A DNA stretch of 64,000 nt from Jaapia argillacea MUCL 33604. Lineage: Eukaryota; Basidiomycota; Agaricomycetes; Jaapiales; Jaapiaceae. A program made the position numbers and the translations under genes. Shown here piece after piece: positions 20,301 to 56,233 of the stretch. Below the pieces are notes generated by a model that saw nothing but the letters and a program-made list of their open reading frames with translations, did not search any database and was not told where the DNA came from. The stretch is taken from positions 268,441 through 332,440 of the forward strand of contig KL197740.1 of the NCBI GenBank assembly GCA_000697665.1, read 5' to 3'. The first letter of the stretch is position 1, and every line of letters starts with the position of its first letter.

Positions 20301-20351
20301 TATCCATCGTTTAACTATCCCCCCTTCACATCCACTGTTATTGCTGAAATC

Positions 20352-20355: not shown

Positions 20356-23288
<2,933 letters not shown>

Positions 23289-29250: not shown

Positions 29251-29254
29251 GACC

Positions 29255-29858: not shown

Positions 29859-30294
29859 TGTTAGGAGTGCTTTAGCAACCAGTAGTCAGACTATGACTTG
29901 AGGCTGTAGAGGATGATGAATGAGAGCAAACCAGTTGAAGAGTACAGGCTAAAGAGCTGTATTGTTCAAGTGGACAAGCTTAGGGAATACAGGAGGGCGA
30001 GAGCACCTTATATACTTGGGCCAGGGAGGGAGAACATAGTAGAAGGGTATAGAAGGCACTAAGAATAGCATCCAAGGAATGCAAGAGAACATGATAGAAA
30101 GGTAGAGAATAAGGCGGAAGGTCCAGAGAAACGGTAACCAGCCAAATGGGGTATAGAATGAAAAGTCAGGTTAATAATAGTACAATGGGATATAAATAGA
30201 ACAAGTCCAAGATGAGGCACAATAAGATGAGATAAGATGTCCAAGATAAGATAAGATAATGAAAAATAAAACGAGTATACACAGAGTCGTAACA
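29859..30294 (-). repeat. 3' LTR of the Gypsy element
   Basis: 436 bp, beginning TGTTAGGAG and ending GTCGTAACA on the plus strand. It contains a TATATACT box near 30011 and a GATAAG-rich stretch near 30220-30260. It is flanked outside by the target duplication CCTTG and inside by the polypurine tract. Confidence 0.95.
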
Positions 30295-33200: not shown

Positions 33201-36200
33201 GTGCCATTGCTACCAAGTCATCCAGTTCATTACTCTTTCTGATTTCCTCTTTTGGGTCTGAATCCCCTGTTATCTGTATATATTCCTTGGAACTCACTGT
33301 TATTATGCTTTGTATCACTAGTCAAATTTGTTGTGCAATGATAGGAGAGTGTGTTGAGGTGGTTCCTCGTCCTGTGATGTCGACCTGTTTAGCGAAAAGT
33401 TCGGGGCCTAATAAGATTCTGTCCTGATTGTCAGTATCCACCCCCTCCCTATAGTCTTGTTGTCTCAAAAGACCATCAGATTTGTTGGATTTACCCAGTT
33501 TGTGTATTAGCTCGAAATCAAATCGTGTCAAGAATTGAGCCCATCTTGCTTGTCGTCGACTAAGTTTCTGGGTGTTTTGGAAGTATTCCAGATTCTTGTG
33601 GTCTGTGTAGATTTTGATCTCATGGGTACGTCCTTCCAGATAGTGGCGCCATGCTTCCAAGGACCAAATGATTGTGAGTAGTTCCTTGTTGTAAATGTTG
33701 TAATTTCACTCTGCGTCTGATAGGGACCTTGACAGGTATGCAACTGGGTGCCAGTTCCTATCTTCCTCCAACTGTGTGAGGACAGTGCCGGTTGCATAAT
33801 CAGATGCATTGCATTCGATCTGGAACTGCTTGGTGGTGTCTGGTGTCACTAATGTTGGGGACGACGTGAATGATGCTTTAAGTTTATTGAAGGCTTCTTG
33901 ACATTTAGTCATCCAATCCCACTTGTGCTCCTTCTTTGTTAACTTGAATAGTGGCTTGGCGATTTTCAAAAAGTCTTGGATAAATCATTGGTAGAAGTTG
34001 CAGAAGCCCAAGAAGGATTGCACTTCCTTGACTTTTTTTGGGTTTGGCCATTCCATAATTCTGGTGACTTTGACCGGGTCCATCTCAATGAGGTTATGGG
34101 ACACCATTAGCCCCAGATATTCGATTTTGGAGACTTTGAATGTACATTTCTCTGGTTTTAGGAAGAGATCATTTTCTTCCAGGATCTTCATTACCTGGTG
34201 GAGTACTTGTCGATGTTTGGTAATTTGTGTGTGAAAATCAGAATGTTGTCCAGGTACACTATGATGTGTCCTTCGTCGATGAGTTCTTTGAACAATTTGT
34301 TCATCATTGTTTGGAAGGTTGCTGGTGAGTTGGTCAGGCCAAAGAACATTACCTGTGGTTTGTATAGTCCTTGGTTAGTTTTGAAGGCTGCCTTCCACTC
34401 GTCTCCCTCCTTGATCCTTATGTTATTGTATCCCCATTGTAGGTCCAATTTGGAGTAGATCTTGGCACCCTTTAGTTTGTTGATGAGTTCAGAGATAAGG
34501 GGTATCGGGTAGGTGTTTTTGACTGTCATCAAGTTTAGGTAATGGTAATCTTGGGTTGGTCGCAGTTTGCCATCCTTTTTCTTGATGAAGCAAAAGGGTG
34601 ATGACAATTGGGATTTCGAGGGTCTGATGTACTTCTTTTCCAGTTGCTCTTCTAGAAAGGCATCAAACTCTTTTTGTTCTGTCGGCGACAGGGGGTAGGT
34701 TTTACAATTGATTGGTTTCCATCCTTCTTTCAATTCTATTGCATGATCCCAAGAGTGTTTTATTGGGAAGCGTTCTGATGCTTTCTTTTTGAAGGTCTTC
34801 CTGTATTTCCAATATTCTCTGGGTACCATCTCTTCTAAGGTTTTTCCTTTTGTCCCTGGGTGGCTTTTTCCACTAATTTGATGGATTTGTTTCCATGGGC
34901 CCTTGCTGTGATAATTAGGGGGTGTTTGTCTTCATCAGGTTCTTTGTCGTCTTTGGGTAATTGGTCTCCCATTAGGGCACAGTGTACCTTGATGCCTTGG
35001 TATGTCCAGGGTCGTATTTCCTGATCTGGATTAATGGTTTTGTCTGTGGTCCATAGTTCCAAGGGGAGCATTCCTTGTTTTCTGTGCCTTTGTATTTTAG
35101 TTCTAGTTTTCCTGAATGGGATGGTCTCTGTGTCGTGTTTTTGAGCTCTTGCAACTGGTTTGGCTCATGCAGAGACAGGTCCTTGTTGAATCTGGCACAT
35201 GTTTGGGCATCGGCTGAGGTTGAGTGTGTAAGTTTGACAGTCTATTTCTGGATTGTGTTCTAGTAGCCAGTCGCTTCCGAGAATGACATTTTCTTTTCCT
35301 ATATTGGTGACATAGAATTGGTTGTTTTCCATATGGGTTCCTTCTTCTTATCTGTGGATTCAGACTCCTAACTCGATGTAGTAGCGAATTTCTCCATTCA
35401 CATTTTCCAAGTTGTCGACATTATGGACTGGGATTTGATTTGGTAGTTTTTGAAGGTTCATTTGTTTTTTGACAGCATATTCATAGCTGATTAAATTTCT
35501 GGTGGCCCCACTGTTAACTAAGGCTTCTGTGGTGGTGGCTCGATTCCTTCTGATAAGTTCAATTTGAATGTGTAAGGATGGGGTTCTCAAATTTTTTAAG
35601 GTGGAAATAGATAATGATTCAGGGGTATCCAAAACTTGGTATTGATTAAAGGAATCTCATTTAACCTTCTTGTTCGCCACAGGTGGAAGGTGATTTAAAA
35701 ACCCAATTTAGCAAACCCTTCTCTGACCATTTGTACTACTTCCCATCTATTATCCTCTGCCGTATCCTGTAAGAGATTCCTGATCTCTTTTCATACATCC
35801 CTTGGTTCTTCCTCCTTCTCATCTCCTACTTCAACAATCCTGGACTGGAAGTGTTTCCTGAAAGGCTTCTTTTGTTTGTCTGGGCAATTGTGGGAGAAGT
35901 GTCCAGGTTTGCAGCAATAGAAGCATGCATTGGTGTCCCTTCACTTCATTCATTCTTGATCATCCAGATGTCAGAATTGTCCAGTTCATTGATTCCTTCT
36001 GATTTGAGCAGCATCTATATCCATTGGGGGGTGGGATCGTCAGGGTATATTGGTTTGGCCAAGCGAAATCTCCAGGATTTCTTGGTGGCAGCTTGATGTT
36101 GGAGGAGATCCTCTTGGATAGCGGCAGTTTTAAAGTTGGTGTAGCTGGATGGGGGAGTGGGAAGGTGGATGATGGTGCAGAGGATGTCCCAATTGAGTCC

Positions 36201-38040
36201 TTTCTTGAAGTACTCAAGTAGGGCAGCATCGTTGAACTCAGTGTAGTGTGCTAAGTCTTCAAATTTGGTGACATAGTCATCGAAGGATGACCTTCCTTGT
36301 TGTAGGTTCTGGATTTGCATCCTTGCCGTTCCTCCCTTGTCCAATTCTTTGAACACATCCTTGACATGAGTAATGAATTCTTCCCATGTATCCTTACTTC
36401 CATCTGCTTTGGTATATGTTCCTTTCTCGTAATCCTTGATGTATTTCATAGCCCAGGAACCAGCAGTGCCTTCCTTCATGAGAGAAAGAGTGTAGGCGAT
36501 CTTGGCCCATTCATTTTTGAAGTCATCTGGATTGGCTCTGATGTTAAGTTTAACTTCTTGAATGAATTTGTCAGTTCATCAGCGATTGCTGGTGAATACT
36601 GATGGTGGGGTGAGCTTGGGTCCTTTGTTGGTTGCAATGGACATGGTGCTGCTAGGTGTGGGGCCTGGTGGCAGAGGTGGCGGAGGTGGCAGTGGAATAG
36701 GTGGGACTTGGGGTGGTGGACTTGGAGTTGATATGGGGTGGTTGGGTGGATCGGGCAGAGGTTCGGTATCGATGGGGATAGGAGTGGTTTCTTCTGTATC
36801 GGCTTGCCCAGCAGAAGGGTCCTGTGTTGGGGAGTGTGAATCTTCTGGTTCTTCTGTGATGGGGGCATGTGTGGAGTGGTTGTCATCAGATACTTCTGGG
36901 GCTCAGTAAGATGTTCTAGAAGCAGATCTAGACACTGATTCGTGTAGTTCTTGTAGTCCTTGATTGCTATGGACCAATTGTCTACTAGGTTGTCGCGATG
37001 GAGGTTTGGGTCAAGGGGTCCCTCCTCGTGAGATTCATTGATGGGGTTAGCCTACAGAGGTTGGGTGGATGAAGATGCGATGAGCGGGGTGGGTGTGGCG
37101 AATGAGGGTGATGCCGGACTGGTTGGAAGTAGAGATCTAGTAGTTTCAGGTTCAGGGGAGCTTGTTTGTAGTACTTCTGGGTGTGCGTGGATGTACTCCT
37201 TGAAGGTTGGCAGACTAGGATTGAATGGGAATTGGTTGGCCCTTCCAAATGATGCGAAGTTTTGGCTGGTTCAGACAACAAAGGGTCTTTGCTCGAAGTA
37301 GAATAGCTGTTATGAGTCGTCGTAATGGAATTTATTCTGAAGGTGGTCAGCGTATCCAAGGAGCTCTCAGAAGGTGGGTATGTGGGTCTCCGCCAGTAGT
37401 GGATAAGTTGAATAAGCAGAGTACCTGTTGGGATCAATCTTGGCAGGTGCGTGTGGGTGGGGGAACTAGTTTGATGTGTTGTTGGCAGAGTTGCTCTACT
37501 TCTGCCACTTGTTACCGTATTCACTCAATAATGTTGTTGACTCGTGTGTGGAGGGTCGTGAGGGCGTTGGCAATGATGTTAAGTTGGTGGTAGAGTTGGT
37601 CGAGTTCCTGGGTAATGAGTAGAAACACGCTTAGAAAAGTGTCAATGTGGATCTGTACTTCCGCCAGGTTTGGTATGTAATGAGCACCTTGAGTAGGATG
37701 AGAAGGCAGATGAGTTTGGATTGTTGTTTGACCTTTGTATGAGTATCAGAGTGTGGTGCGATGGGGTAGCAGGCAGTGACGGGGCATAATTGGATGGGAG
37801 CTAACAGGTTAGCATGGTAGATTGGGTATAGAGCATGCATTACTCATTGTTTAACGAATCCAAATCATTTGCTATCGTTGTATTGTACATAGAAAAGGGG
37901 TTGGATGTTGATGGTCCCAATGAGACTGGGGCGGGGCTCGTTGGGTACAACAATGCGGTAGGATTCCAGGGTGAATGAGATTGCAGATCCTGACTGTGCC
38001 AGTGTCATAGGGTGAGTAGGGTGTAAAAAGCTTGTCCAAG

Positions 38041-38476
38041 TGTTAGGAGCACTTTAGTGACTAGTACTCAGGCTATGACTTGAGGCTGTAGAGGATGATG
38101 AACGAGAGCGAACCAGTTGAAGGGTACAGGCTAAAGAGCTGTATTGTTCAAGTGGACAAGCTTAGGGAATACAGGAGGGTGAGAGCACCTTATATACTTG
38201 GGCCAGGGAGGGAGAACATAGTAGAAGGGTATAGAAGGCACTAAGAATAGCATCCAAGGAATGCAAGAGAACGTGATAGAAAGGTAGAGAATAAGGCGGA
38301 AGGTCCAGAGAGTTGGTAACCAGCCGAATGGGGTATAGAATGAGAAGTCAGGTTAATAATAGTACAATGGGATATAAATAGAATAAGTCTGAGATGAGGC
38401 ATGATAAGATGAGAAAAGATGTCCAAGATAAGATAAGATAATGAAAAATGAAACAAGTATACACAGAGTCGTAACA
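38041..38476 (-). repeat. 5' LTR of the Gypsy element
   Basis: 436 bp, the same length and ends as 29859-30294. It is followed by the CCTTG duplication at 38477-38481, then by the continuation of the Plavaka gene. Confidence 0.95.
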
Positions 38477-38481
38477 CCTTG

Positions 38482-39059
38482 CAGGTATAATTCAAACATC
38501 TTGTTTCTGACAACTATATTGCATTTTCTGACTCCTTGTTTTAGGAACTAGAGTGGGACGAGTACACTGCATATTCAAGCTACCTACCAAGATTTGGGAT
38601 ACAGAGTTCCATGATCACATTTCTGCCCCTCATCAGTGGCCAAAGGAGCCTTTGGCTCACATTGAGTGGTATAGCCCACTGGCTGGAGCTGCTGATCCCA
38701 ACTATATGATGTATGAGGTTAGCAAACCCCACCCACAAGCTGACGGTACTCCTCCTGGTCCTGTGGTGCATCTATCTGATGTTTACCAGAGTTGTCAACT
38801 TGTTCCCAAATTTCCCAAAAAGCTCGACACTTCCTGGGAGAGTCATAAAGTGCTTGAACAGTGTAATGCATTTTTTTGTAAACAACTGGACTTCTCTATA
38901 CTCCTATCAGACTATCTGGTAGCTTTCTGTACTATAGATTGTCAACGTCTACCTATGGCCAATATATGGAACTCTGAAACAAACTCAATTCTATATAGAG
39001 CTTTTTTGGGTTCTATGAAAAATCGTGCACATCTTCTAAAGTTACATAGATTAAAATGA
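38482..39059 (+). pseudogene. Plavaka-type transposase fragment, 3' piece
   Basis: This continues the piece at 29255-29858 beyond the inserted Gypsy element. After an intron-like stretch ending TTTTAG at 38547, the frame 38553-39059 reads GRVHCIFKLPTKIWD, then PLAHIEWYSPLAG, then YMMYEVSKPHPQ. This is the conserved C-terminal region of Plavaka transposases (normally VRVIFKLP, then LAYVEWF, then MYRVSR). It ends at a TGA at 39057. The usual last block of the protein is not recognisable after 38950. Together the two pieces cover perhaps the last third of a transposase. It cannot be active. Confidence 0.75.
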
Positions 39060-39179
39060 TCTAGATCTGTCTGGGCCTATAGTATGTAAGAGCTCTAAGT
39101 AGGGTTTTGTGTTCCTTTATGGAAGGTGCTATCTTTAGAAACTGTTGTCAAGTTCTTGGATCTAGAAACCATTTTTCCT

Positions 39180-42095
39180 GATGTAGTCAACAGCAGGGGC
39201 ACCAGAAATTTAATCAGTTACAAATACACTGTCAAGAAGCAAATGAACCTCCAGAAACTACTGACCCAAATCCCAGTCCATAACATTGACAACTTGGAAA
39301 ACATGAACAGAGAAATTTGCTACTATGTCAAATTAGGAATCCAAATCTATGGACAAGAAGGAGGAACCCAAACAGAAAACAATTGATTCTACGTCACCAA
39401 CATAGGAAAAGAAAATGTCATCCTCAGAAGCGACTGGCTACTAGAACATAATCCAGAAATAGACTGGCAGACTTACACAGTGAATCTCAGCTGATGCCCA
39501 GACACGTGCCAGATCCAACAAGGAACCATCTCTGCACAAGCCAAACCAGATGTAAGGACTCAAAATCGTGAAACAGAAACCATCACAATCAAGACAACCA
39601 AAATTACAACAAGAAGGTGCAGAAAACAAGGAATGCTCCCCTGAGAACTATGGACCCCAGACAAGACCACAAGCCCAGACCAGGAAATACAACCCTGGAC
39701 ATACCAACACATCAAGGTATGCTGCACCCTAATAGGAGATCCATTACCAGAAGACAATGAAGAATCCGATGAAGGGGAGCACCCCCTAATTATCATGGCA
39801 AGGGCCCATGGAGACAAATCCATCGAATTGGCAGAAAAAGCTGCCCAAGGACAAAAAGAAAAACCCTGGAAGAGATGGTACCCAGGGAGTATTGGAAATA
39901 TAAAAAGATCTTTGAAAAGAAAGCATTGGAATGCTTCCTGATAAAATGTCCTGGGGATCATGCAATAGAATTGAAAGAAGGATGGAAACCAATCAATTGT
40001 AAAACCTACCCCCTATTGCCGGCAGAACAAAAGGAACTCAATAACTTCCTGGAAGTGCAGCTGGAGAAGAAGTACATCAGACCCTCAAAATCCCAACTAT
40101 CATGGCCATTCTTCTTCGTCAAAAAGAAGGATGGGAAGCTCCGACCGACCCAAGATTACTGTTACCTAAACTCAATGACAGTCAAGAACACCTACCCAAT
40201 ACCTCTCACCTCCAAACTCATCAACAAACTGAAAGAAGCCAAAATCTACTCAAAATTGGACCTGCAATGGGAATACAACAATGTAAGAATCAAGGAAGGA
40301 GATGAATGGAAGGCAGCCTTTAAAACCAACCAAGGACTATATGAACCATGGGTAATGTTCTTTGGCCTAACCAACTCACTGGCAACCTTCCAAACAATGA
40401 TGAATGAACTATTCAAGGAACTAATCAATGAGGGACACATCATAGGGTACTTGGACGATATTCTGATTTTCACACATGACATTGCCAAACATCAACAAAT
40501 GCTCCACCAAGTAATGAAGATCCTGGAAGAAAGCAATCTCTTCCTGAAACTGGAAAAATGTACATTTGAGGTCCCCAAAATCAAATACCTAGGACTGATG
40601 GTGTCCCACAACCTCACCGAAATGAACCCAATCAAAGTCGCTGGAATCATGGAATGGCTGGAACCCAAAAAGGTCAAGGAAGTACAATCCTTCCTGGGCT
40701 TCTGCAACTTCTACTGACGATTCATCTGAGACTCCTGTCCACTCCCCCCACCCTTCAGATTATCACCCATTAGAAGATATGGAGATTAATGAATGGAACA
40801 GCTGTGCTGACTACACCTCCCCACCCCTAGTCCCTACTGATGCCTCCTCAACTGCCAACTCCCTCTCCTCACTCCATTCCGTATCCTCCACCACGTTGTT
40901 GGAACCCCAACTACCTCCCTGACCTTCCTTGGCCCCTTCATCCCTTGGCAAATGCCCCAGAAACCGGATCTGATACCCCACCCCTAGCCTCACCACTAAA
41001 TGGAAACCCAAGGGAGGCAAACACAAATGGCCACCAGCTGGTCTACCTGACTCCAAAGAAATCTGGCCCAACCCTGTCAATGCCATCAAACAATGGGGAT
41101 CCACCCCAAACACCCCCTTCCCCTCACTGTCCCAATTCCCTGTTGATCTCTGGGCTGCATGCCCCCCCCTGTTATATCATCACCAACGACTCCAAATGCC
41201 ATCAACAGGCCAAGTGTTGGAACTGCCATTGCTGGGGACATATCACAAGGTCTTGCCCCACTGACTGACAACCTTGTAAGAGAAACCCAGTCACCCCTCA
41301 TTTCCCCCCCCACTCACACCGCCCACAGGCCCCCACCCACAATTTCACCCCTACCACAGCCAACCCCAATCTCGGAATGCACCCTCCATGAGGAATCTCA
41401 ACTTACTGCCTATATCAAGAACAACACCCAGCGATGCAAACTCAAACTGGACAGCACTCGATGGGCCTGGATCCACTGGATGGAACAAGGAAAACATCTC
41501 CTGGCATCCCAACACCCACTTTTGTTGCCCACTGCCCCAGTATACCCTGATGCCACTATGTGGCAGCAATTTCTAGATTGTCAAGTGATGGAAACAGATT
41601 GGAACCACAAGGGTTTGGATAGAGGTTTGGGACAAACCTCAGCTTAGAAGAGGGGGTGGTGTTATGACTCTGTATACCCGTTTTGTTTTTTCATTTATCT
41701 TATCTTATCTCAGACATCTTATCTCATCCTATCGCACCTTATCTCGGGCTCATTCTATTTATATCCCATTTCACTATTATTAACTTGTCCCCCTGTACTA
41801 TACCCTATTCGGCAGGTTACCGACTCTCTGGATGTTCCACCTTGTTCTCTATTCTTCTATCATGTTCTCCTGCATTCCTTGGACACTATTCTTAGTTCCT
41901 TCTACACCATTCTACTATGTTCCACCATTCTGGCCCTAGTATACAAGGTGCTCTTGCCCTCTTGTACTCCTTAAGCTTGTCCACTTGAATAATACAGCTC
42001 TTTAGCCTGTACCCTTCAACTGGTTCGCTCTCATTCATCATCCTCTACAGCCTCAAGTTGTAGCCTGAGTACTAGTTGCTAAATCACTCCTAACA
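39180..42095 (+). mobile_element. Second Gypsy copy, incomplete (fossil)
   Basis: This is a relative of the element at 29859-38476 in the opposite orientation, starting about 120 bp after the Plavaka end. Recognisable parts are a protease-like region (39180-39390), a reverse transcriptase region (39875-40717), the extra 3' open-frame region with a CWNCHCWGHITRSC zinc knuckle (about 40740-41647), a polypurine tract (near 41643-41659) and a 436-bp 3' LTR (41660-42095). No 5' LTR, gag, integrase or chromodomain is seen, so no target duplication can be checked. It is broken and incomplete. Its LTR is more diverged from the other two than they are from each other, so it is probably older. Confidence 0.88.
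41660..42095 (+). repeat. 3' LTR of the second Gypsy copy
   Basis: It begins TGTTATGACTCTG and ends ACTCCTAACA, the reverse complement of the LTR family at 29859 and 38041, and has the same length of 436 bp. Confidence 0.92.
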
Positions 42096-44944
42096 TGATC
42101 AAGTTCAGTCCTCCAAGCAGACCTGGGGTTCCTCCGTGTAGGAGGACATGCTACAGACAAAGAAAGGAGCTTATTCAAGAAGGATGCCAGGGCTCTGTTG
42201 ACGAGGGAGGATTACTTGAGTATCCAGATATGAAGTGTACATGGGGAAAGATGATTACGATGACATTGAACATCAAGCAAGGACAGGAGATTTGAGAAGG
42301 TGGCATGGATCCGTGCAGGGTGTGTGTGAACATTTGTGAGGGTTCATTGACACCTTGAGGTCAGTGAAGGTTGGATACATGCACACAGAGTGATTGAGTA
42401 CATAGTGCAAACTTTCAATGGAGTTGGTGTCCATGTGGCTCAACCATCAAGCATAGATTCCTGGCTTATACTGTAGAGGCTACCTCATTGCCAGTGTCAA
42501 CTGCACATCAGGCCCACTGAACTTGCCCATTTTGCATCATTCATGTCCAACAATGTGTGCTGCTTCTAATTCCCTGTCTCCATGGATCCCACCATCTCCC
42601 TCCTCAGCCCAATACATGCTACCCTACACCAACCTGTGGTACCTGGACTTCTTGTGCCATCTCTCTCCATCTCCCTCACTGGGACCCCCAAATCTCAACC
42701 TATTCTTTTCATCCGAGGCCTTGATGCAGAGTGGGCTTGCAGTTTCTTGTAACCAGGTGTGTGCCTTTTCATTCAACTGGTGGTTTATTATTTGGATGCA
42801 GTGGACTTGGATACTGAGAGCGAGATGGAAGACATAATGAGAGGCATCGTGTTGATGCTATCCATCTCAATATGCTCACACCCCTCTCTCAAAAGAGGTT
42901 GCATTTGTATGATGTGCATCAGCATGTTGTTGGGGTCTTCTCAGTGTGTTCATTGATCAATTCATCTATATCTCCTTGTACACTTCCATATTGTCTTCCC
43001 TCATCTTCCACTGCTTACTCCCATTACCACAGCATCCCATACTCCACAGTACAATCACTCTTCATCTCCACATAATGTCCATTTCATGCCAACTGTCACA
43101 ATATACTCTACTGGGATCGGCTTTGTCCTTTGCAAGCGGGGTAAGTATTGTGGATGGTTCAGCATAGGTTACCCTTGGCTTAGATTTGCTGGTGGCTGAT
43201 TGAGGAGTCAGAGAGGTGGGATGGACCACCCAGAATGGACTGTCACAACATCCCTTCAACACAAAATTACACCCCTTGTTCTTCTCCCAACACTCCCTGT
43301 TTCTCCAGTTGTCACAAAAGCCCATGATTCTTGAGCTACTGGCAATCCCAACCCCAACTCCAATGGGGCATATTGACCTTCACAGCCAAGTGCAGACTTG
43401 GGATTTAAAGAGGGAGGGTTCTAGACAGATGATGCAGGGAGTGATAAAGTGAGCGGGTGGGCAGTGTAAAGTGAGGTTGAGATTGGGTGGGATGGGACAG
43501 TTGGAACCTTGGAGATTTTGGATTGGCCAAACCTCAAGAGTTTTTCTCTCGTCAATCCCTCCCTGTTCAACATGATTGAGACACTAGCAACCCTCTCCCC
43601 TCATTCCCAAACCTCACCGTCTTCTCCACACCTTCATCTGCTCCTATTCACTGCGATGGCTCAGATCGTCAAACTCCTTATAACTCCCATCTCACCCTCT
43701 CCTCCCACTGCTCCCCCAACCATCACCCACCACATATACCTTCAAACTTGAACCATGGTTATTATGCAGGGTTAGCTCCAACCTCACCACTAAGAAACCA
43801 TAACAGACAGACTTTACTCCTGGCATCCATTCAGCCCTTTGGCGAGAGTGAAGGAGAGCCTAGATAGGCTCATGGTTTTATGTGGTGTTCAGAGGATATT
43901 ATGTAATATTGAATTAGGGATTCTATGCACTGCCCTTCTTCAACTCCCAGTGCTTTCTCCCATGTCCCTAGTCTATGATACCCCCAATTGACTTGATCAG
44001 TCTCCCACTGCCAAATCTACCTTCAAAAATGATATCCTGTCTCTTGGCAACACAAGTGCTGACTCTAGCATAAGTTTCAAGTACCAGAGGAAGAGTGGAT
44101 GATGGGCTTATGAGTCAGCTCAGGGTTAGGGCACATACGATTCAGCAGGTTTGGTTACTTGTGCTGGAGGTATTGTTATAGTATTGGATGAACATAACCA
44201 ATTGCATATAAGATCTCACTCGGTGGTGATTGCCTGGACATAATAAACTCTGTATGCCCTTAACTTTCCTCGATCCAGCTCCCCCAATTTGAGAGGTCAC
44301 CACCATTGGTTGATGCTGTGCATCCTTCTCTCTCCCTCTCCTTCTATCTTGTGGCTGCTTATCACCCCTGATTCTTCACTTATACCCAATGTCACTCTGA
44401 ACCAAAAGACCTACAAGTTGTGGCAAGCCTGCCCATCTGTCCATCTCACCATTGTCATTCTACTTCCTCCAAAAAGTTCCGCTCCTCGCCTCAGTGATCC
44501 TGATAACCGTTCAACCCTACCCTACTGCCATTTGACCCCACAGCCTTTGTCTTGACAGCAACTCCAAAGCACAACCAACACCCTCCATCAAATAAGCCAG
44601 AGTATGAACATTTTTGGCTTGAAAGTGCTTGTTATTTGGTGCCTCCTTTTTGCATTCCAGTTTTGACTTGTGCATACTCCCCCATCAGCAGTGCAATATT
44701 GTGCTCATTGGATCTTGTAGTCCAGAGGAAGTCACAATCCAAGTGATGCATGTGCTATGTTACAATGTTGGCAGTGCTCAACCACTCTCATCCTGTTGTC
44801 GAAATGTTGTACTAATCATAGTCCAAAATTAATCATTTTGCCTGTTCCATTTACAATCAACTTTTCTGTATTTTACCCTATACTAATCAATGTCTTGGAG
44901 TCTTCAGTGTATGACTGGACCTCCCAGACTTCTTCTTGAAGTAC
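42096..44944. other. No recognisable gene
   Basis: About 2.8 kb of CpG-poor text with proline/serine-rich fragments on the plus strand (for example 43571-43751). An exon-like piece near 42690-42755 reads PILFIRGLDAEWACSFL before GTAACC. I could not assign these to a family. Some may be F-box/LRR debris. Confidence 0.35.
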
Positions 44945-45285
44945 AGTAAGAGATGAGTACAGCTACCCTTCAAAGGTGAGATACAAGTCTTCTTGAATTT
45001 GGCAATGACTACTCTTTGAGCTTGTCAATCCAGCTTGTCATCAACATCCCATGCAAGTCCAAGAGTTCATTCTCCATCATCGTGATCAGCACATCGTACT
45101 TGGTGAAAATGACCACTCGTGGCACTACACGAATAAACCGTCCAGTCAGTCCATATAGTTACTATAAGCGATGAGTATGGGCTTACCAGTCCCCTAGATT
45201 GATCATAGATAATTTTCCTTGCCTATGTCAAATACTCTACTTTCTACAACAGGCCAGTGGTACAAAGCCTCCAGGGAAGTTACTA
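44945..45285 (-). pseudogene. CpG-decayed copy of part of the GTPase gene at 57.4 kb
   Basis: This aligns base for base with about 57385-57700, an exon/intron/exon stretch of the intact GTPase gene, and includes the intron. Shared phrases are GAGATACAAGTCTTCT, GTCCATATAG/GTCTATATGG, CGATGAGTATGGGC, AATACTCTACTT and GCCTCCAGGGAAGT. Because the intron is present, this is a DNA-level duplicate. Where the intact gene has CpG, this copy mostly has TpG or CpA: TCGAATTCGG becomes TTGAATTTGG, CTCGTCGTC becomes CTTGTCATC, and GCGAA becomes GCAAG. No protein can be read. The duplicate lies in the same orientation as the intact gene and ends abruptly on both sides. Confidence 0.9.
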
Positions 45286-46143
45286 TCCAGAGAGGGGTCA
45301 ATGTTAAGCCAAGGATAAAGGGCAATAGGAGTTCAGACATTACTATTCATGGCCCACTAGGTGTGCTATTTCAAGCTGATGAGTGCTTGGCTGAGCGCCA
45401 GACATCTCATAGAATGCCCATTGGATGTTGAGTCTAGACTGAAATTGAGTTGTTGAGAGTTGATCTTGCAGTTTGTGCACTCAGATAATCAGAGAGGTGA
45501 GGGATTGCCTGTGATGTGCGACACAGGCCATACTATATTGATCATGGCAGTGATTGACATGTAGAGGTGTTGCTGAGGATGTCAACGTCCAGGTAAACAT
45601 TAACACAAGAACAGATACCACTGCATACTAGGTCTGAGTGAAGTCAAGAGTGGACAAACCATGTGGATGTTACTACCATTTGAAAGTCAATCAAGTCATT
45701 GACTAGACTCTGTCATGCATGAACCCACCGCTCACCAAACTCGACCTGCACAAACACGAAGGCCAGCTCCACAATCCCAGCAGAGTCTGGCACACACCCC
45801 TCCCTCTCATCTTTGCCCATCTAGACAATTGCAAAGATCTGAGAGAGGAGGAGAGGATGGGTGGTAAGGTGGGGAGCATTTTGCGAGGCTGGAGGGAGGG
45901 ACTATATAGAGAGGCTCATTATTGTTAAAGCTATGGTGGGATGGATGCAGCTAACCTTGCGCTTAACAATAAGAAAGAAAAGAAGCAAAGTCATGTGGTT
46001 GCTGAATTTAGCAAGGGGGAAATGGAGAGGGAGGTTTGACATTGCACGATGATCACAAGCAATGGATCATGATTTTGTTCAAGGTCGAGCTGGATCTGTG
46101 CATGTTGAGTTTGGATTTGAATTGAGAGATTTGGAGTTGGAGT
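45286..46143. other. No recognisable gene
   Basis: A short plus-strand frame at 45719-45928 contains PLPLIFAHLDNCKDLREEER, which resembles the F-box of the pseudogene at 47.3 kb and may be debris of another family copy. The rest shows nothing. Confidence 0.35.
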
Positions 46144-46146
46144 TGG

Positions 46147-47021
46147 CACTGCAGACAGGGGTTGATAAAGGGCCACGCCATATTGCTCCCATATTAATTC
46201 CCTGATGTAACATTTTCAGGGTCCCACAGGAGACTGCCATAGCCAAATCTGTAGTTAAATTTTGTGATTTCATACAGGTCCCTGCCATATCTGTAAGACA
46301 AAAATTGAAATAAGTCAAAAACTATGTCATTTGACTGTGGGGTTGGCCCATACTGATGGACAAAAGGTAAAATACAGGAGGGCATACGGCTGGGCTACAT
46401 CTTTTAAAAATGTCCCATCACCTTATGCAGAAGCATTTTTTGTACATGTTGGGTTACCGTATTTGGGTTTTGTCATAAGAAAAACATGGGGAACTACTGA
46501 AAATGCAGCTTATGAATATGACCATCTGATATAATCATGCACCATATTATGAAATTGTCTATGTGACATATAACCCCACCTGACTCATCCCAAGCATATA
46601 TCATGTAGTCATTTTCAAAATTTGACATTTTATTATGTCTGACAGTCATATTCACAAGCAGTATTTTAAGTAATTCCCCACATTTTTCTTATGACAAAAC
46701 CTGAATACAGTAACCCAAATGGTACAAAAAATGCTTCTGCATAAGGTGATGGGACATTTTTAAAAGATGTAGCCTGGCCGTATGCCCTCCTATATTTTAC
46801 CTTTTGTCCATCAGAATGGGCTAACCCCCACAGTCAAATGACATAGTTTTCAGCCTATTCAAATTTTTGTCTTACAGATATGGCAGGAATCTGTATGAAA
46901 TCACAAAATTTAACTACAGATTTGGCTATGATGGTCTCCCATGGGACCCTGAATATGTTACATCAGGGAATTGATATGGGAGCAATATGGCATGGCCCTT
47001 TATCAACCCCTGTCTGTAGTG
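46147..47021. mobile_element. Foldback MITE with CACTG/CACTA ends
   Basis: This 875-bp element is almost entirely an inverted repeat. The left arm (46147 to about 46543) starts CACTGCAGACAGGGGTTGAT. The right arm (about 46625-47021), read in reverse complement, starts CACTACAGACAGGGGTTGAT. The arms match along about 400 bp with roughly a tenth of sites different, and a spacer of about 80 bp separates them. A 3-bp TGG lies directly outside both ends (46144-46146 and 47022-47024). CACTA-like ends with a 3-bp duplication fit the CMC/CACTA superfamily, to which Plavaka is related. Each arm contains the same short frame starting MAGxCMKSQNLTTDLAM, which I take as chance coding in a palindrome. It encodes no transposase. 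Confidence 0.85.
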
Positions 47022-47312
47022 TGGGAATTTGTATAGTCAGATTAAGCAAGAAATTGTTGGCCGTGGTCAATGCAGGATGTATTGATCCCAAAGATGATCA
47101 ACAGGCAGACAGTTATGGTGTTGCTGACGATGTCGATGTTCATGTGACCCCAATCACCAAAGAAGGGATACTACTCCATCCTTGTTGTGAGCGAAGTCAA
47201 TCTTCCAGTTTCTTGAAGTGAGCAACCCACATGGATTCAGACAACAGTTTCTAAATCAGGCACACCACCATACACTGAAAGCTCAACCAGTATGACAAAT
47301 GTCAGGCAGACA

Positions 47313-49240
47313 ATGTCAGAGGAGCCCATCATGCACCTATCCCTCCTCTCATCCTCTCTCAACATCCTACCCCTCATATTCGCCCACTTGGACAAGTCAG
47401 CCCTTCTCTCAGCCTCCTGAGTAAACAAGACTTTCAATACCTTCTCAAACAAGCTACTTTACTCCTCCATAACCTTCTCTCCTGATTGGATGAACCCTGG
47501 CTATCCTTGCAAAGACAAAAGAACATTTGTACATGAGTGTGAGCCATAATCCTGATCTTCCCATCCAGCACTGATGCTGTTCCTCAACATAGCAATGTCA
47601 ATTTACATCTGCACTCGGATCCCACATATCTCCCCATGTTCAACGACTGACAATAACAGGTCTGTCTGCCCCATACCATACATGAAATTGTGCTGACCAT
47701 GAACTTGTTATCCAGGTTTCCTTGGCTCCTACTTGTCAGCCCCCACCACTCTTCTCTCCTCTCTCCACATCTCAATCCTCTGCTTTGCTTCCCTCCAATA
47801 ATTCTCAATAACACCTACTGATTATCTCCCAGACCAATTCACTCCTCTCCTCATCAGGTTAGCGAATGGCACTTTGCAGAGGCTGAGTGAGTTGGAAGTG
47901 AATACAAGTTGTTTTGTTGAGAGCAGGGAGTATGAGTATAGGCCTAGGATCCTGCTTGGTGGTGCGATCATGGAAGAAGACAAGGATGAAGATGGAGTTG
48001 ATGGAGAAGAGAACAGGGAAGCTGAGATGAAGAATGAGAGCAAAGTCAAGACCCTAATCTGAACATGGAGATTAACATCCCTCACCCTCATCAATCCCAA
48101 AGGCACCATCATCCAATCCCTCTCCACCTGGCTAGGCCACCTATCCCCAACTCTCTGTGAATTCTATCTCAATGTGCCCCATCTTGCCTCACATGCATTT
48201 CTGATCGCTAACTGAAGTGTACACTCACAGGGTAATTGTGGTTTGATCACCCCTGGAATCCTTCATTCCTTATTGGTTGCTCTTCTTGCGCTTCACCAAC
48301 CACTCCAATGTTTCTCAGTCAGAATATCATACTCTCTAACTGACACTGACATTTTTGGGTTTTTGGATGGGAGTCTGAATGGTCCCATGTGAGAACTCAA
48401 GGAGTTGACTGTATACTATTACTTGGTAACTCCCCATCCCATCCTCCTCTCCTAACATCCTTAATCATGGAAGTGCAGCAACTCAAACACCCTACTGTAA
48501 TCCCCAACCTCTCCTCCCTCTGCAGACTAATAATCAAACACACCGGCACCAATCTCATGCACAACCCAAGCATCCCTCTTCACATCATTCATCATCTGAA
48601 TCATAAAAAAGTCTTGGTGTCTTTGTATGCTCAATATCAATCATAATGGGGTTGGAGGGGGAGTGAAGATGGATGGGTTGGTGAGCAGTTTGGTTGTGCG
48701 GGAGGGTGGGGGTGTGGGGTTGAGAGAGGTTAGGCTGTGGTTTTTAAGGAACTTCTTAGGAGGTGTACATTGTTAGAAGTTCTGTTTGCTGGAGTTAGTC
48801 TGGGGACTTTGGTGAGTGTTACTGTTACCCTTGTCTTCTGGGACTCCTCATCAATATTTACAATCCCTTCAGCAAGATTTACCAACCCTAATTGCTCCAT
48901 TGAAGTGCCTTCACAAGCTCTCCCTCAATACACATTTTGTGAAATAGTTGAAACAGTCAAACCTATTCAACATCAAGGCTGTGCAAGACCTCATAAGCAC
49001 ATCTTGTGTTAGAAGGTTAAGTGTGGATGACATAGCTTGGGAGGTAAGCTTTTCCTCAGTTATACAATTGGTGTTTGGACAGATTATGTCACATATGGGT
49101 CGGAAAGGTGGGAGGCTCATGAAGGCAAGGAGGAGCTTTGCATGGTTGAAGTTGGCAAGGCTGGGCAGTGGTAGGGATGTTAGATGGGGTTGTTCTGGTG
49201 AGTTATCCTGTTGATCCTCTCTGTGCTGTACTGGGCATGT
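47313..49240 (+). pseudogene. F-box/leucine-rich protein pseudogene
   Basis: The ATG at 47313 opens a frame with a clear F-box: LNILPLIFAHLDKSALLSAS, a TGA where arginine would be expected (47418), then VNKTFNTFSNKLLYSSITFS. F-box proteins bind Skp1 and bring targets to SCF ubiquitin ligases. Leucine-rich text follows: about 47865-47990 (LQRLSELEVNTSCFVESREY, then PRILLGGAIM) and about 48055-48195 (WRLTSLTLINPKGTIIQSL, then WLGHLSPTLCEFYL). A further block at about 48670-48720 (MDGLVSSLVVREGG) is shared with the copy near 54.5 kb. The frame is broken many times by stops and shifts. Basidiomycete F-box/LRR families are large and evolve fast, which suits the several copies seen here. Confidence 0.7.
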
Positions 49241-49817
49241 ACCTGATCAATAAATTATCATTCAATGAACAGCTACTATGTTTTTCTTGGCCATGAATGA
49301 ATGGTATGCTTCAAATACTGATCGAGAGTTCAGTGGCAGGGGTGGTAGGGTCATTGTTCTCCTGGATGGAGAGGGTGGTGGTAATAGTTCTTAAGAAGGA
49401 CTTGAGAATGTGAAAGGTGGTATGATGTTGTTGAGAGGAGGTTGGTGAAGGGTTCAAGAACTGATGTTTGTGTTGAGATATATAGGTACATTGCTTTGCA
49501 TAGCAACATTGTATCACACTGACAATGATCAAGACAATGTGTCTGTACCCATACTCCTTCTGCATTGTAACAACTAAAATTGTATATGTGCTGCAAGTAA
49601 CAATCTTAGGTGGACTCAGTACAAAAGGTTACATATCAAAGGCACAAAGAGTATAAGTGTATAGATAAGTTTCAGCCAATACCAGTACATGTTTTTGTAG
49701 TGAGATAACAAGATAAAAGATGTAACACAAGGTTAGGCTGGGCTAGCAAGGTTTTTAGGCCAGATTGCTAGATAGTAAAGCATAAACACAGCTTAAGAAT
49801 GAGATAAAAACACCTAC
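49241..49817. other. No recognisable gene
   Basis: No frame can be supported. This is the 3' flank of the GTPase gene that reads towards it from the right; its terminal exon may lie here but could not be placed. Confidence 0.35.
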
Positions 49818-52161
49818 TTTGAGTGTACTTCATACAGATTTCCAGGAGATCATCAGCATAGGATACAATGACTTGTCTATTCTTCTTCAGCCTCTCTGCA
49901 AAATGTAACCTCCCAGAAAACTTTGATTCTACATCTTTCATCAACATGCTGTACTGGTTGCTGCTGTGAAATGCTACAGCAGTGTGGATAATGGAGGCCC
50001 GGAAACTCATTTGAGGATTAAATTTTCTGAAAAAAAAGACATCATGCATAATGATTATAAGGCCTGTTGAAAACAAAAACACAGTCAGGTAGTAGTAGTT
50101 GAAGTAGAGAGAAAAACTGGCCAGCAAGGAAGAAAACAATATCAAATATATTTTGTGGTCGAACAGGAGGCTGAAGAAGATCATTGATTGATAGACTAAA
50201 TGTGGAATGGTAACCAAACATACAGAAGCATTCAAAAGATCCTTGGCCACTGCTGCAAAAATCTAAAAGCATGAAACGTATGATAATGTAAGAACCTGGC
50301 AAAAAATGAAAAAAACAAGCATAAGTACTTACATCCTAACATATCAAAGAATTAAAAAAACAGATAGTAAGCAGAAGACACAGGCCCACAGATGTAAATG
50401 ACATATACTCACATCCTAGCATTATGAAGGATAGAGAAACAGCTGGTCAGCAGAATGCACAGGCCCACAGATGTAAATGGCATGTACTCACATACTGGCA
50501 TTATGAAGGATAGAGAAACAGCTGGTCAGCAGAATGCACAGGTCCACAGATGTAAATGGCATGTACTCACATACTGGCATCATGAAGGATAGAGAAACAG
50601 CTGGTCAGCAGAATGCACAGGCCCACAGATGTAAATGGCATGTACTCACAGCCTGGCATCAAACAGAATGTACATTCAGCACATACAGTTCTTCTGGTTA
50701 GTAGTTACAATAATTACCTAGATTATTGATGAAATTTACACTCTCCTCACCACAGCAGAGATTCTAGTCAATAAAACTCACCCATATGTGTGGGAACCAT
50801 CCTATAAGTCTCTTGATTATACTCTCCCCATTCCATCTCAAATGCAATGGTGTGAACACATCTATGAGCGACTATTTCAGTAAAAGCACATAGTAAGTAT
50901 GTATATGCTAACATCGTTTCATAATGTCTCTGCATATTTGTTGGTCAGGGCTATTCTTCTAATCAGCATAATCACTTACTCAATGCCATACTTCATAGCT
51001 AGCTGCACATTGTTTGACTGTATTGAAACATATAACTTTTGCAAATTTGAAGAATTTTCTAGTGCCTTGGCCGTTTTTTCTGACAGTCTGGTGCAGACAG
51101 CATCCACTTTATGCATATCTCCAACAGCATACTTTAGGTCAGTCTCTCCAATTGACTGTAAATCACCTACCACTAAGATACACATACTCTGCTGGTGGAA
51201 ATGACTTTGAATTGACCACAGAAAGATAATGTTCTTCAAATTCTTGAAGTGCCAGTCCAGGGGCCATCTGTCTTGCCTCGCGAATTCTCATGCCCTGGTT
51301 CCGGAGCTCATTGCATGCTTTAAGAACTAGACCATCCCATTTTGTGAAAACTGCAATGACAGGCACTACTTGCAAACCAATGAAGTAGCATAAGCTGATT
51401 CATAGTATCAGATCTCACCATTGCCTGTGCCTTGGTTGAAAAAGGCAGCCTCTGCAGGAGATAGGACTCGAGCCCCATCTGTTGGAATGCAGTACCTAGA
51501 TAGATATATATTGTGTTATATCATAACTGAGACCACCATGACCAAGCAGGTTCTTACCAAATTATGTGCAATTGCTTCTCAACATCACCACTCTTTCCTC
51601 GAGACTCAATGAAGTCATGAACTGCCTGAATCTCATCCGTAGACCCAGCTTCAAACCCCCTGGAGTCATGAAATACAAAGGCAGGGTTGCTTGCATATGT
51701 AACCTCATAATCTATGTGATGATGGCCACGCTTTTCAACATGGTTCCAATGATCAATGCTCAGGACAAAAATGAAGGTTGGAAGAGGTATACCAGGGCCG
51801 TGGGACCCTCCAGCAAAGAAGGATCAATCTGAGAGGGGAAAAGATGAACTTGATAGGTGTACCGTGATCGTAGAGAACTAGGGCTTACCACATTTCCGTC
51901 CTGATCTCGAACAACGGGCTGCTCTGTCGTGTCACAGATCTTTTGCAGGATAGTAGTTTTGCCCGAGTTTGCTTTCCCCATGATGAGGACACGGAATCGA
52001 CGGTACATTCGCCTTATCTTGATGATATCGGGATCGTCGTCGTCGGGCGGATTGGGCGGCAAGTTGTCGTCAGTGGTTGTGCTAGTCGGGTTGATCTCTT
52101 GATCATCGAGTTGGTTCGTCGCATTAGCACCGTCGGTAGTGGGGAGTGAAGTCTCAGACAT
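49818..52161 (-). CDS. P-loop GTPase-domain protein, 3' end uncertain
   Basis: Exons, in gene order on the minus strand, are 52161-51889, 51828-51793, 51730-51558, 51495-51419, 51368-51171 and 51118-50980; the frame stays open through all of them. The protein begins with a disordered, acidic stretch of about 50 residues (MSETSLPTTDGAN, then PPDDDDPDIIKI). The GTPase core follows: G1 GKANSGKT (residues 62-69), G3 DSRG (125-128, within FVFHDSRGFEAG) and G4 TKWD (195-198, within VPVIAVFTKWD). Next come the conserved blocks FPPAEYVYL and DMHKVD. This matches a multi-copy basidiomycete GTPase family of unknown role. Probable later exons are 50871-50782 (ending GWFPHIW) and 50026-49818 (KFNPQMSFRASIIHTAVAF), but I could not join them in frame, and a 79-bp tandem repeat lies between them. 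The gene may be losing its 3' end, since it straddles the CpG-poor border. Confidence 0.75.
50331..50649 (-). repeat. 79-bp tandem repeat made of intron-like units
   Basis: Three near-identical 79-bp units (50413-50491, 50492-50570 and 50571-50649) are preceded by a diverged fourth unit (about 50331-50412). Read on the minus strand, the strand of the surrounding gene, each unit starts with the donor-like GTGAGTACATGCC, contains GCTGACC (a fit to the CTRAY branch consensus) and ends in TGCCAG or TGCTAG. Three bases (TAT or GAT) then separate it from the next GTGAG. The array lies between probable exons of the GTPase gene. Confidence 0.85.
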
Positions 52162-53938
52162 TGTGCAGCTAGACGGATGAGAGACGATGTCGCGAATGGT
52201 CAAGATGGATGAGCAAGCAACGTGCAGGCGACTGCCGCCACTGTACGAAAGGCCTTTCCACGCTCGCCTCAACCTCGTTATTATAATGCGACAAATGCCA
52301 CCATCTCTGGCCACGACTGTTGACTATCAAAATCGGAACCGTCCATCTCGTCCCTCATTTCGGCCCACAAGTTACAGCATCGTAGTATGGCACGGATTTC
52401 TCGACATTTCCAGCCGTCGTGAGCAGAGCGAGTCATATCCTGACCCCATCTTGGGCAGTACACCTGGAGTCCACCGCCCATGTCCCTTATCGTGCTGAAC
52501 CCCTTAACGTCTAACTCCCGTCATGCAACTATCTCCAGCCGAAGTACTATATGCCCTTCAAGCGAAGATCTCTTAGCCTCCGCTCCGAATTACCCCCTCC
52601 TTGTCTTCACCTGGAGTTACTCGTTTCCCGCACAACCCAACCCCGGATACCATGCAAGTGCATCCTCCATCGTGGCGCTACATCTGGAGGCTGCGCCCGA
52701 TTATGTGAAGGGCGCAGTTCGACAGGAATGCTAGGAAGGGGCGTTCGTGAGTCTTATCCCCCGTTTCGACTCACTATCAAGTAAGTACTTCATCCCATCA
52801 TCGTGCAGACGGATGAACTACGCCAAATGCACGAGTGCTAAATTTTCCGCCTCAATACCACGACCTTCGGCAAACGGACAAGCATCCAATCCATTCAAAT
52901 TTCGGATGACGGCGAGTTGCTACTCATGTCAGAATGCAGACAACCGACGAGCGAGGACTTTCAAGCCTGAAGTTAGGCTACGCTATCCGCCGTGGGGGGT
53001 GTATCCACTGACTGAACTATCTTTCATACCGGCGCCCAACTTCACAAATACCCGGAGTCGGCCTACATTCACGACCATGCGATCCTCCCTCCATCGTTGA
53101 GACAGCCACACGGCGTATGATCGTTAGGATGGTAGGGGTTTTTGGCGAGGATTATGATGAGCTCTACGAACGAGACAATAGGGCAATATATGCTTTCGGC
53201 TACTCCTTGCGCATGTCTCGATGTACTTCATGATGCTGTGTCATCTCAGTGTACTATGTAGTCACAATGGAGTGTGCATGAAATTGAAATTGGGAGGATG
53301 TTCGAAATGTGCCCCTCCTTTCTCTACACGACATAATACAACCCACCCAACATCGAAATGGTCAATCGTGAAGTGTAATTTGAGTAGTCTATAACGATAA
53401 CAATCGTCAGCATGATACATCTTCGATCTGAGGAGCACTGTACCGAACACATTTCAATGCAAACAGCGGTTCTCGGGCGCTTTGCCAACCCTCTCGGCCA
53501 CTTTCCCAACTGCTTCACGACCTGATCGTTTCTCAAGAACCGTCTCGGCCATCCGAACACGAGAGCGACGACCTAACACCCTACATACGCCGCTCCCCAC
53601 GACCACTTGAAGAGTTAGGTCTGCCGTCTTCCTGAAGGGCTGCGTAAGACGGGGTGGTCGAGTGAACCATCGGTTGTCGATCGGGGTACGTGGCTGATTG
53701 GGTGTGTTTCGTTTTTGTTGTGTAGGAGCTCGGGATCGGGATTGGAAGGAGGAGCCGGTGCTACCGCGATGCACCACGGCTACCATTTTCTGAATCAACA
53801 AATGCGAACGATCGCCAGAAGCGACACCGAACGACTTACCCAACCTAACGGTCTAGCACTACCTTTCCCCCACTCAAAAGGTCACATCTATGTCCACATT
53901 CCAGTAGTCTATCAAGGTTGACATGACGATCAGTATGC
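52162..53938. other. No recognisable gene; CpG-rich upstream region
   Basis: This is the region upstream of the minus-strand GTPase gene that starts at 52161. It is CpG-rich. Plus-strand open frames at 52480-53100 and a minus-strand frame at 53454-53843 show no family motif and look like chance frames in GC-rich DNA. A promoter for the GTPase gene should lie near 52170-52400, but no clear TATA box is visible. Confidence 0.35.
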
Positions 53939-53939
53939 T

Positions 53940-55430
53940 CACCATCGCCGACCGAGGAGAGAATACTCACCGAAACGCCACCATTTGACACCACTCCCGA
54001 GCCCACTCAACTCCACGGCCCCCTCACCTTCACAAACCTCCCGCCTCCATAACACACGTAAAAAATAAGTCAAAAAGTCCAGCGTCAAATTGTACGATCG
54101 AAGCTGAATCTCGCCTCCCAACGCACACCATCCGCGCTCGACCTCCTAACACTGGACGTTCCCATCACTTCTCGCGCGGCCGTAATGTTGAATAAGTCGG
54201 GATGTCTCCCCGGGTTTACGAAATGGACTTAGAGGTCGAGGTGGTGAAGATCCTCCAGTGGGACGATGAGGCTCGGTGAATCTCACTGAGGGGATCGTGA
54301 ACATCAATAACGAGAGTCGGAAGAGGAGGGAAACGACACCACTCACCAAAGTCCCCACCCAACTCTCGGCAACCAAAACTTCCCTCCCCGCACAATCTCT
54401 ACAAAACTCCTCAAAAGCGGCTCTGCTAACGAACCACGACCTGACCACTTTCAATCCACCACACCCGCCCTCACGCAGAACCAAACTATTAACCAGACCA
54501 TCCATCTTCCCCCTCCGATTCCGTCATGAACGCTATCTAGTATCCGACGACGCCGAGAGTTCTTGATGATTCGGATTAATGATTTGAAGAGGAATGCTTG
54601 GTTTGTAGATGAAATTGACGGTGCCGGTGTGTGTGATTGTTAGTTTGTGGAGGGAGGGGAGGGATGCTACTACGGTGGACACAGTGAGTCGCTGGATCTC
54701 CATGCGTAATTGGCAGGGACGAAGGGAGGGAGGTAGGATTTACCAGGTGATAGCATAGAGTCGATTCCTCGAGCCCTCTCATAGCACCATTAGGACTCCC
54801 ATCCTAAAACCCAAATATGTCGGCATTAGATATTGAATAGGACATCGCGATGGAGAGGCTTCGCAGAGGTTGGCGTAGCGCGAGAAGAACCGAGGATGAT
54901 GAACGCAAGATCTCGAAGTGATCGAACCGAAAAGACCCTGTGCATAAATCCCTCGTCAGCGCTTATACGCACGCGAGGCAGGACGGGAACGTTACACGGA
55001 GGTGAAATTCGCGGAGGGCGGGTGAAAGGTATTGGGGGAGACTGCCTTTGGGACCATGAGGGTGAAGGATAAGGGGGTCAACTTTGCTCTCCTTCGTTGC
55101 CGCTCGCCCCGGTTCTTCATCGACCCGACACAACCTTCATTCACCTCATATTCGTCTTTCGCAAGTATTGCACCACCAAAGGGTGCCCTCGGCCTATAAT
55201 CCAACTCCCAGCTCTCAACAAAACATCTCGTAGTAAATTCCAATTCCTTCAACCTCTGGGCATCGCCGGAGATCAACACGAGGAGGAGCGGAGCGGATTG
55301 GTCTGGGAGGTAATCGGTGGGTGCCGGAGAGAGGGAGTGGATGGAGGGGAACGAAAGGACTGGTTGGGAGGGGGGAGAGGAGGATTGAGGGAATGATGAG
55401 CAAGAGCCTGGTAATCTGTAGGGAATCATG
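53940..55430 (-). pseudogene. F-box/LRR-like gene fragment, minus strand
   Basis: Two blocks match the pseudogene at 47.3-49.2 kb in the same order. In the 55429-54992 frame, LISGDAQRLKELEFTTRCFVE and YRPRAPFGGAI correspond to LQRLSELEVNTSCFVE and YRPRILLGGAI there. In the 54505-54146 frame, MDGLVNSLVLREGGCGGLKV corresponds to MDGLVSSLVVREGG. A leucine-rich text (GPKGSLPQYLSPALREFHLR) lies near 55030 in another frame. This copy keeps its CpGs. I found no F-box upstream, and the joins between blocks are not obvious, so it may be an intact gene with introns I could not place or a truncated copy. The fragment call is cautious. Confidence 0.5.
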
Positions 55431-56233
55431 TTAGCCTTTAGGTGCGGTTGCTACTTTGAGAAGGGAGAGGACGAACTGTTTATTGTGAGGGTTTGGACGT
55501 TGGGAGATATGTGAGGCTAGTGATCAATCAAACCCTGTGGTGCTTCTCGATGTGTTTGGACGGTCGTAATTGAAGGCCAGATGGAGGGCCCCGTAAGTCT
55601 TGAGTTGAGGCTATGCTGACAATCGGAAAGAGGGACATCGGTAGGAAAAGTAGACGATATCAGTATGAGTGGGTATGAGTTGTCGAGTGTGAAGGGGTTC
55701 TAAATATTCTATGTCCGAAACGTGAAATTTCCTTTTAGGGCAAGTTTCGGCAATTTCCGTCCATCTGCACATCGACTCTGCGTTGGAGGAGTTCGTGAAC
55801 TAGCTTGACAGATGTATTGAGGAGGCTTAGGAGGATTTGGTGGAGTTTAGGTGTCTCTCGAGCAAGAAATGAGACTTGAGTGCTCCTCGATTTGAGTGCG
55901 CTCCAGCAAATGTTGCGCGCGGGAATAAAGGTGCATTTTGACCGTCATAGGTCAGTATGAGCCTGCACGAGCCTGAGCTCGGGATCACTGTGGCACCTTC
56001 CTCTCAGCGGCGTGTCATGATCAATCGCAAGTTTCCTCTCCCTTCTACCTTAGCTTCCCTTTTTCTATATCTTCGCTGATGACCTTCCGAAACCGATTGC
56101 ATTTAATTACTGTTCTGTTTACACTTGGACGGTATGCTACCTGATAATATTCCAACACAATCTCCAAACAATCCTCACCATGGAACGAAGGGCCTGGGGT
56201 TGGGTGACGAAGCAATGCCACGACTGAGTGAAA
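55431..56233. other. No recognisable gene
   Basis: This is intergenic, CpG-rich and without a supportable frame. It separates the F-box-like fragment from the 3' end of the large GTPase gene, both read on the minus strand. Confidence 0.4.

Follow-up and report, generated by a model that had tools for sequence, protein, structure and literature searches.

A recurrent CpG step within a family of GTPase-like genes of Jaapia argillacea that carry arrays of one-codon exon-like units

Very short in-phase exons characterise the micro-exon genes of schistosomes, in which we know of no array of equal 3-nt exons, and variable codons of a stop-proof form are found in diversity-generating retroelements. 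Among fungi, the truffle NACHT-ANK (nank) family is described, in 2012 work as cited in PMC4986451, as diversifying by alternative splicing of codon-sized microexons. Fungal transposable elements are reported to pass from CpG to TpG or CpA by deamination of 5-methylcytosine, a process that the account in PMC4352252 links to Masc2-like DNMT1 genes, and DNMT1 plus DNMT5 is given as the main set of basidiomycetes in PMC7862722. Here we analyse a 64,000-nucleotide stretch of the genome of Jaapia argillacea MUCL 33604 (the window), in which an ordinary case of CpG decay, when traced to its edge, led to an unusual gene architecture.

We recovered the alignment, proposed in an initial annotation of this DNA, between a segment near 45 kb and a GTPase gene near 57 kb. 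By BLAST and local alignment, positions 44902..45293 match 57313..57708 of the CpG-rich gene (both on the minus strand) with 74.8% identity over 408 columns, and 308 of the 380 aligned bases compared are identical. When substitutions in this pair were counted by context with the 57-kb copy as the reference, transitions proved to be enriched at CpG, as the annotation had supposed, affecting 16 of 47 C/G positions within CpG but only 15 of the 135 C/G positions elsewhere (p=0.0011 by Fisher's test). Taking the 45-kb copy as the reference instead gave no excess (1/11 against 12/152). Of the 23 aligned CpGs of the 57-kb copy, 14 are TpG or CpA in the 45-kb copy, 1 is TpA, 3 are kept and 5 have other states. 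The earlier estimate that roughly nine of eleven CpGs had decayed was right as to the decay itself, but the recount within 44945-45099 gave 9 of 13. The idea of a duplicate lying beside its source was not supported, since the segment is the end of a longer decayed stretch (42099..45293) whose CpG-rich relatives are found at 223.1-226.2 kb and 226.9-228.9 kb of contig C32 as well as at 57.3-57.7 kb of the window. The proposal that the segment is the lost 3' half of a gene at 52 kb was rejected, as that gene retains its own 3' exons. The segment is what remains of a dead GTPase gene related in type to the one at 57 kb, and its sign of CpG decay is true and by itself ordinary. What the annotation overlooked is a compartment edge at about 51.9 kb, which lies within another GTPase gene and recurs in that gene's relatives.

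Up to this edge, positions 1..51900 of the window form a CpG-poor compartment with pieces of Ty3-type retroelements, comprising reverse transcriptase, gag and chromodomain. The CpG observed/expected ratio (o/e), measured in 2-kb windows, stays within 0.07-0.44 from 1 to 52 kb and within 0.79-1.10 over the remaining 52-64 kb, and none of the 224 500-bp windows of the 112-kb right arm (52-64 kb of the window together with C32:332-432 kb) falls below 0.5. In six comparisons of CpG-void with CpG-rich copies, the flagged pair included, transitions affected 32-37% of C/G positions at CpG and 10-16% of the others, with p from 5e-5 to 8e-16 in the five comparisons beyond the flagged pair; 47346..49203, for example, is an inverted CpG-void relative of the CpG-rich 53.9-55.5 kb. 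In two rich-rich pairs, which are less diverged (83-84% identity as against 69-80%), the corresponding values were 9-11% and 8-9% (p 0.20-0.48). The excess in the former comparisons and its absence from the latter bear out the annotation's view that CpG-directed change is confined to one compartment. Among pairs of void copies and pairs of retroelements, CpGs have become few and those that remain are still changing.

CpG transitions accompanied by a rise in TpG and CpA as CpG drops, which is the pattern of 5-methylcytosine deamination, were found. G+C is lower as well, at 0.35-0.46 in the void, as might be expected had the void come from base composition or from selection against CpG with methylation playing no causal part. 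We regard such an origin as highly improbable, given that the losses are CpG transitions, that TpG and CpA go up as CpG goes down and that o/e already corrects for G+C. A RIP-like mutation triggered by duplication is a second candidate, as the decayed stretches are repeated and show a slight preference for TCG (80/182 against 116/342, p=0.03), a context reported for Microbotryum in the account in PMC4352252. RIP, however, mutates duplicates wherever they are located, and here the rich-side repeats (2.4-3.1 kb, 83-84% identity) are without CpG excess, the retrieved parts of three additional copies (86-88%) of 52.3-53.0 kb are CpG-rich, and the decay spans single gene 3' ends. Tested with these rich-rich duplicates, RIP is unsupported as the cause and, in our judgement, very unlikely; the lack of excess in the rich-rich pairs argues that decay tracks location, or compartment, and that duplication is not the trigger. 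5-methylcytosine deamination is the reading that we carry forward.

The CpG-poor part of the window also contains a palindrome (46147-47021; an 877-column self-complementary match, 86%), an inverted pair of retroelement reverse transcriptases (33972-35520 and 39184-40733, 82% identical) and, at 20405-20911 within the retroelement-bearing block, an open frame matching phosphoglucose isomerase (PF00342, E 3e-20), which is perhaps another decaying gene.

The step at about 51.9 kb falls within a minus-strand GTPase-like gene, the P-loop exon of which is CpG-rich while later exons are CpG-poor. Exon 1 (51889..52161), with the ATG and the P-loop, lies on the CpG-rich side, and exons 2-6 (50782..51761; ends approximate, read by eye) lie on the CpG-poor side. 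Beyond them, on the same strand, come an array of 79-bp units (50333..50652) and a putative terminal exon (49768..50262) with an uncertain 3' end. The array holds five 3-nt exon-like triplets: GCT (50650-50652), TAT (50571-50573), TAT (50492-50494), GAT (50413-50415) and GAT (50333-50335). The first six codons of the putative terminal exon are highly divergent among three copies (pN 0.51-0.64) and are followed by KDLLN; beyond these six codons the frame is open in the three copies, in which clear purifying selection was not detected. Upstream of the gene lies a CpG-rich stretch (53021..55532) that is repeated upstream of the genes at C32:219.5 kb and C32:231.5 kb. The border gene sits between an inverted pair (47346-49203 and 53021-55532, ~64-69% identical), one arm of which is CpG-void and the other CpG-rich, and related arms are present around the C32:231.5 gene.

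The family of this border gene has the motifs GKANxGKTT, HDSRGFE and TKWD/TKFE in exons 1, 2 and 4, which are candidates for G1, G3 and G4 of P-loop GTPases. The joined exons of one copy gave nothing past E 0.001 in Pfam, weak GTPase matches below the curated cut-off in NCBIfam and weak Arf-like/EngA matches in PDB; NACHT and ankyrin were absent among the profile matches of this query, which covered the joined exons up to the terminal region, and one viral-contig scan did not confirm a relative. These matches hint at a small-GTPase-like family, for which a firm name was not reached.

A genome search with exon 1 listed 30 hits, of which the 20 with DNA were profiled. A CpG step with the void on the 3' side is present in 18 of the 20 profiled relatives, with log-likelihood ratios (LLR) of 33-54, and its position relative to the P-loop ranges from -13 to +521 bp; in L35 and L41 masked sequence interrupts soon after the P-loop, and the readable part of L41 is without a clear step. 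In the pooled profile of the 18 loci, with L35 and L41 excluded, CpG o/e falls from ~1 upstream to ~0.06 at +1 kb. CpG per 100 bp drops along the family exons (6.5, 3.1, 1.8, 0.8, 0.4; exon block 3 takes in a single false match in L41 that lies 5' of the gene), and arginine codons shift from 62 CGN : 25 AGR to 1 CGN : 19 AGR. The void exons are still coding, with pN/pS of 0.21-0.66, and exon 4 is stop-free in 17 of 21 copies and has a stop in 4 (its recovery was partial in L31, L33, L34 and L45). The 57-kb GTPase gene has neither a CpG step nor, by the searched strand patterns, an array. Since copies in the border-gene family are collinear over 2-3 kb with 58-91% identity, gene and border might have been duplicated together throughout the family, in which case the step would be a single old inherited event and the gene would play no part in it. 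We think this doubtful, because the same step is seen despite unrelated array units among subgroups and because CpG in the void is still changing, which suggests that the low-CpG state is kept up.

On C32, outward-facing genes at 219.5 kb (minus) and 231.5 kb (plus) flank a CpG-rich island. On contig C24, four promoter-side tiles contained 14, 7, 10 and 7 CpG per 150 bp and six 3'-side tiles 4, 5, 1, 3, 5 and 3, while a tile between two same-strand genes had 12 and a distant tile 9. The listed reverse transcriptase hits within 30 kb of family genes form 15 pairs on the 3' side but only 2 pairs 5' of the gene (p=0.002; the pairs are not independent, the 15 downstream pairs deriving from 12 distinct hits); 150 of 178 candidates were scored, and the count takes in those whose contig also carries a family gene. 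Near C32:185 kb there is a CpG border without a listed family gene, and telomere repeats (at least 3 TTAGGG) were not found in the C32 sample. As to methyltransferase genes, two loci have BAH and methylase hits (C5 and C2), and a methylase locus on C4 is without a nearby BAH hit. The C2 locus (149.2-152.4 kb, L025), methyltransferase-like with a BAH hit nearby, differs from the C5 locus in its lowered CpG, three of its four 800-bp bins having an o/e of 0.25-0.46.

Turning to the arrays, Tandem Repeats Finder detected a 3' tandem repeat with units of 77-79 bp in 17 loci out of 20, the remaining three being masked there. Group 1 and L49 both have units of 79 bp, those of group 2 are 77 bp long (76 in one), and the consensus units of L30, L36, L40 and L49 had no cross-group match among the matches listed. 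Every unit has the form YAG-NNN-GTRAGT, an exon-like stretch of exactly 3 nt. Across the 20 loci, we counted 65 sense tandem sites with a 3-nt gap, in 17 loci, and none with gaps of 0-2 or 4-12; there were no antisense tandem sites in these loci, and in the C32 sample the counts were 29 versus 0, again in favour of a gap of 3 nt. The gap is 3 nt in 117 of 119 sites, a count which, like the 116-triplet set, includes three units twice, since L31 overlaps the C32:214-218 kb source. For triplet statistics we used 104 units, with L31 excluded; L35, L37 and L41, cut by masked sequence, gave no units. In group 1, 49 of the 51 triplets have T as their last base, and there are 20 kinds among the 48 units of group 2. 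No stop occurs among the 104 triplets, where group 2 by itself should have yielded 3.2 (P=0.036); the expectation in group 1 is only 0.14, given its NNT form, which makes the stop test uninformative for that group. The ends of exon 6 in the family read ..WYPW + codon, ..WFPHIW (the form in the border gene) and ..PKFW, all in phase 0 (frames read by eye), so that the array triplets would be codons. Multiple one-codon exons, as in codon-sized microexon genes, are therefore predicted from the sequence.

Exon-like units with variable triplets are tied to one gene family. When the 43.7-Mb genome was searched for three such units in a row, the pattern matched 230 times and its reversed form 3 times. 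All of the 100 matches listed out of these 230 follow an exon-1 hit on their own strand at a distance of 1,039-3,548 bp downstream, and they belong to 15 genes. The 5-kb zones behind the 30 exon-1 hits make up 0.17% of the two-strand genome.

The triplet is hypervariable within units that are otherwise nearly alike. Of 114 pairs of units that match in at least 94% of their other positions, 19% share the triplet, whereas windows clear of the exon are identical in a median of 83% of the same pairs (minimum 45%). At an intron difference of ~3.6%, the triplet differs by 42-52% per base and is identical in 23% of pairs, with 90% expected at equal rates. The per-base difference jumps at the codon to 0.51-0.71 (0.11 at the third base in group 1, where that base is fixed). 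A few intron sites, at 0.35-0.51, come close to the codon in variability, among them +14 in group 1 (0.51) and -5 in group 2 (0.49); the latter lies within ATCGACAG, which is CG, TG or CA across unit consensus sequences, as would be expected from CpG decay.

These measurements bear on whether the array might be a non-coding minisatellite in an intron or 3' UTR, in which case the motif would be a decoy or a point of recursive splicing, and the triplet would vary for want of any constraint. The motif itself would fit recursive splice sites, which place 3' and 5' splice signals side by side. Neutral triplets, however, should not outrun their intron, as they do here (42-52% per base versus ~3.6%), nor would one expect a gap length of 3 nt and none other, the lack of stops in group 2 (0 versus 3.2 expected) or the entry of exon 6 into the array in phase 0, and we consider a minisatellite unlikely. 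If the triplets are instead codons, their change by selection and their change by a targeted process are both compatible with the data and testable. In group 1, 26 of 56 pairs at least 94% alike elsewhere differ at two triplet bases and 3 of 56 at three. Of the 58 comparable pairs in group 2, 24 have no triplet base in common. Differences of the latter kind are not readily given by single-base change plus selection, which leads us to suggest, tentatively and as the less likely course, that a dedicated mutator rewrites just three exonic bases per repeat and so renews a recognition tail, with methylated chromatin as part of the mechanism or as its mark.

Taken as a whole, we think it fairly probable that methylation-driven CpG decay here meets a GTPase family with a diversifying tail, stored as one codon per repeat. 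In this model, the chromatin of the CpG-poor block would have been CpG-methylated over long times, with deamination of 5-methylcytosine yielding TpG and CpA, and the edge of the methylated chromatin would cross a member of a GTPase family other than that of the flagged remnant. Genes of the border family run from a CpG-rich promoter side and P-loop exon, through exons of dropping CpG, into the 77-79-bp array, each repeat unit of which is predicted to consist of an intron and one 3-nt exon in phase 0, so that in the tail of the spliced protein each repeat would account for a single amino acid. The codon evolves far faster than its own intron, and gain or loss of units would alter the length of the tail. 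Likeness to fungal NLR repeats and the truffle nank family suggests that the tail may be a diversifying recognition part on a GTPase switch. The array, as a possible seed, and the retroelements beyond it may attract methylation that weakens towards the promoter, which would leave the CpG step.

If splicing holds, a sizeable fungal gene family would store a variable peptide as one codon per tandem repeat. A codon within its own intron would carry a built-in clock, by which selection and targeted mutation would be separable within one genome. The CpG step could likewise serve as a fossil record of the methylation limit, making heterochromatin borders testable from sequence in such genomes.

How does this arrangement compare with known systems? 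It shares very short in-phase exons with the schistosome micro-exon genes and, judged from codon form alone, variable stop-proof codons with diversity-generating retroelements. In the literature covered, preprints lying outside its scope, we recognised no description of such arrays in GTPase genes. As in fungal transposable-element decay, in the account in PMC4352252, CpG passes to TpG/CpA in repeats; unlike what is described there, the decay here also reaches coding sequence, at the 3' ends of genes belonging to one family, and the edge is recurrent. Podospora HNWD/NWD genes and fungal NLR repeats, as portrayed in PMC4986451, similarly combine near-identical repeats with a few diversifying codons and a changing repeat number, but there the repeat is a whole WD, ANK or TPR motif, whereas here it is one codon, the rest being intron. 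Like the truffle NACHT-ANK genes, the genes described here belong to an expanded fungal NTPase family in which multiple codon-sized exons are proposed to diversify the protein; in contrast to those genes as described, the family is small-GTPase-like, with 77-79-bp arrays, hypervariable codons and CpG-void DNA. Compared by description, the GTPase arrays would be a variant of codon-sized exons, predicted as such from sequence.
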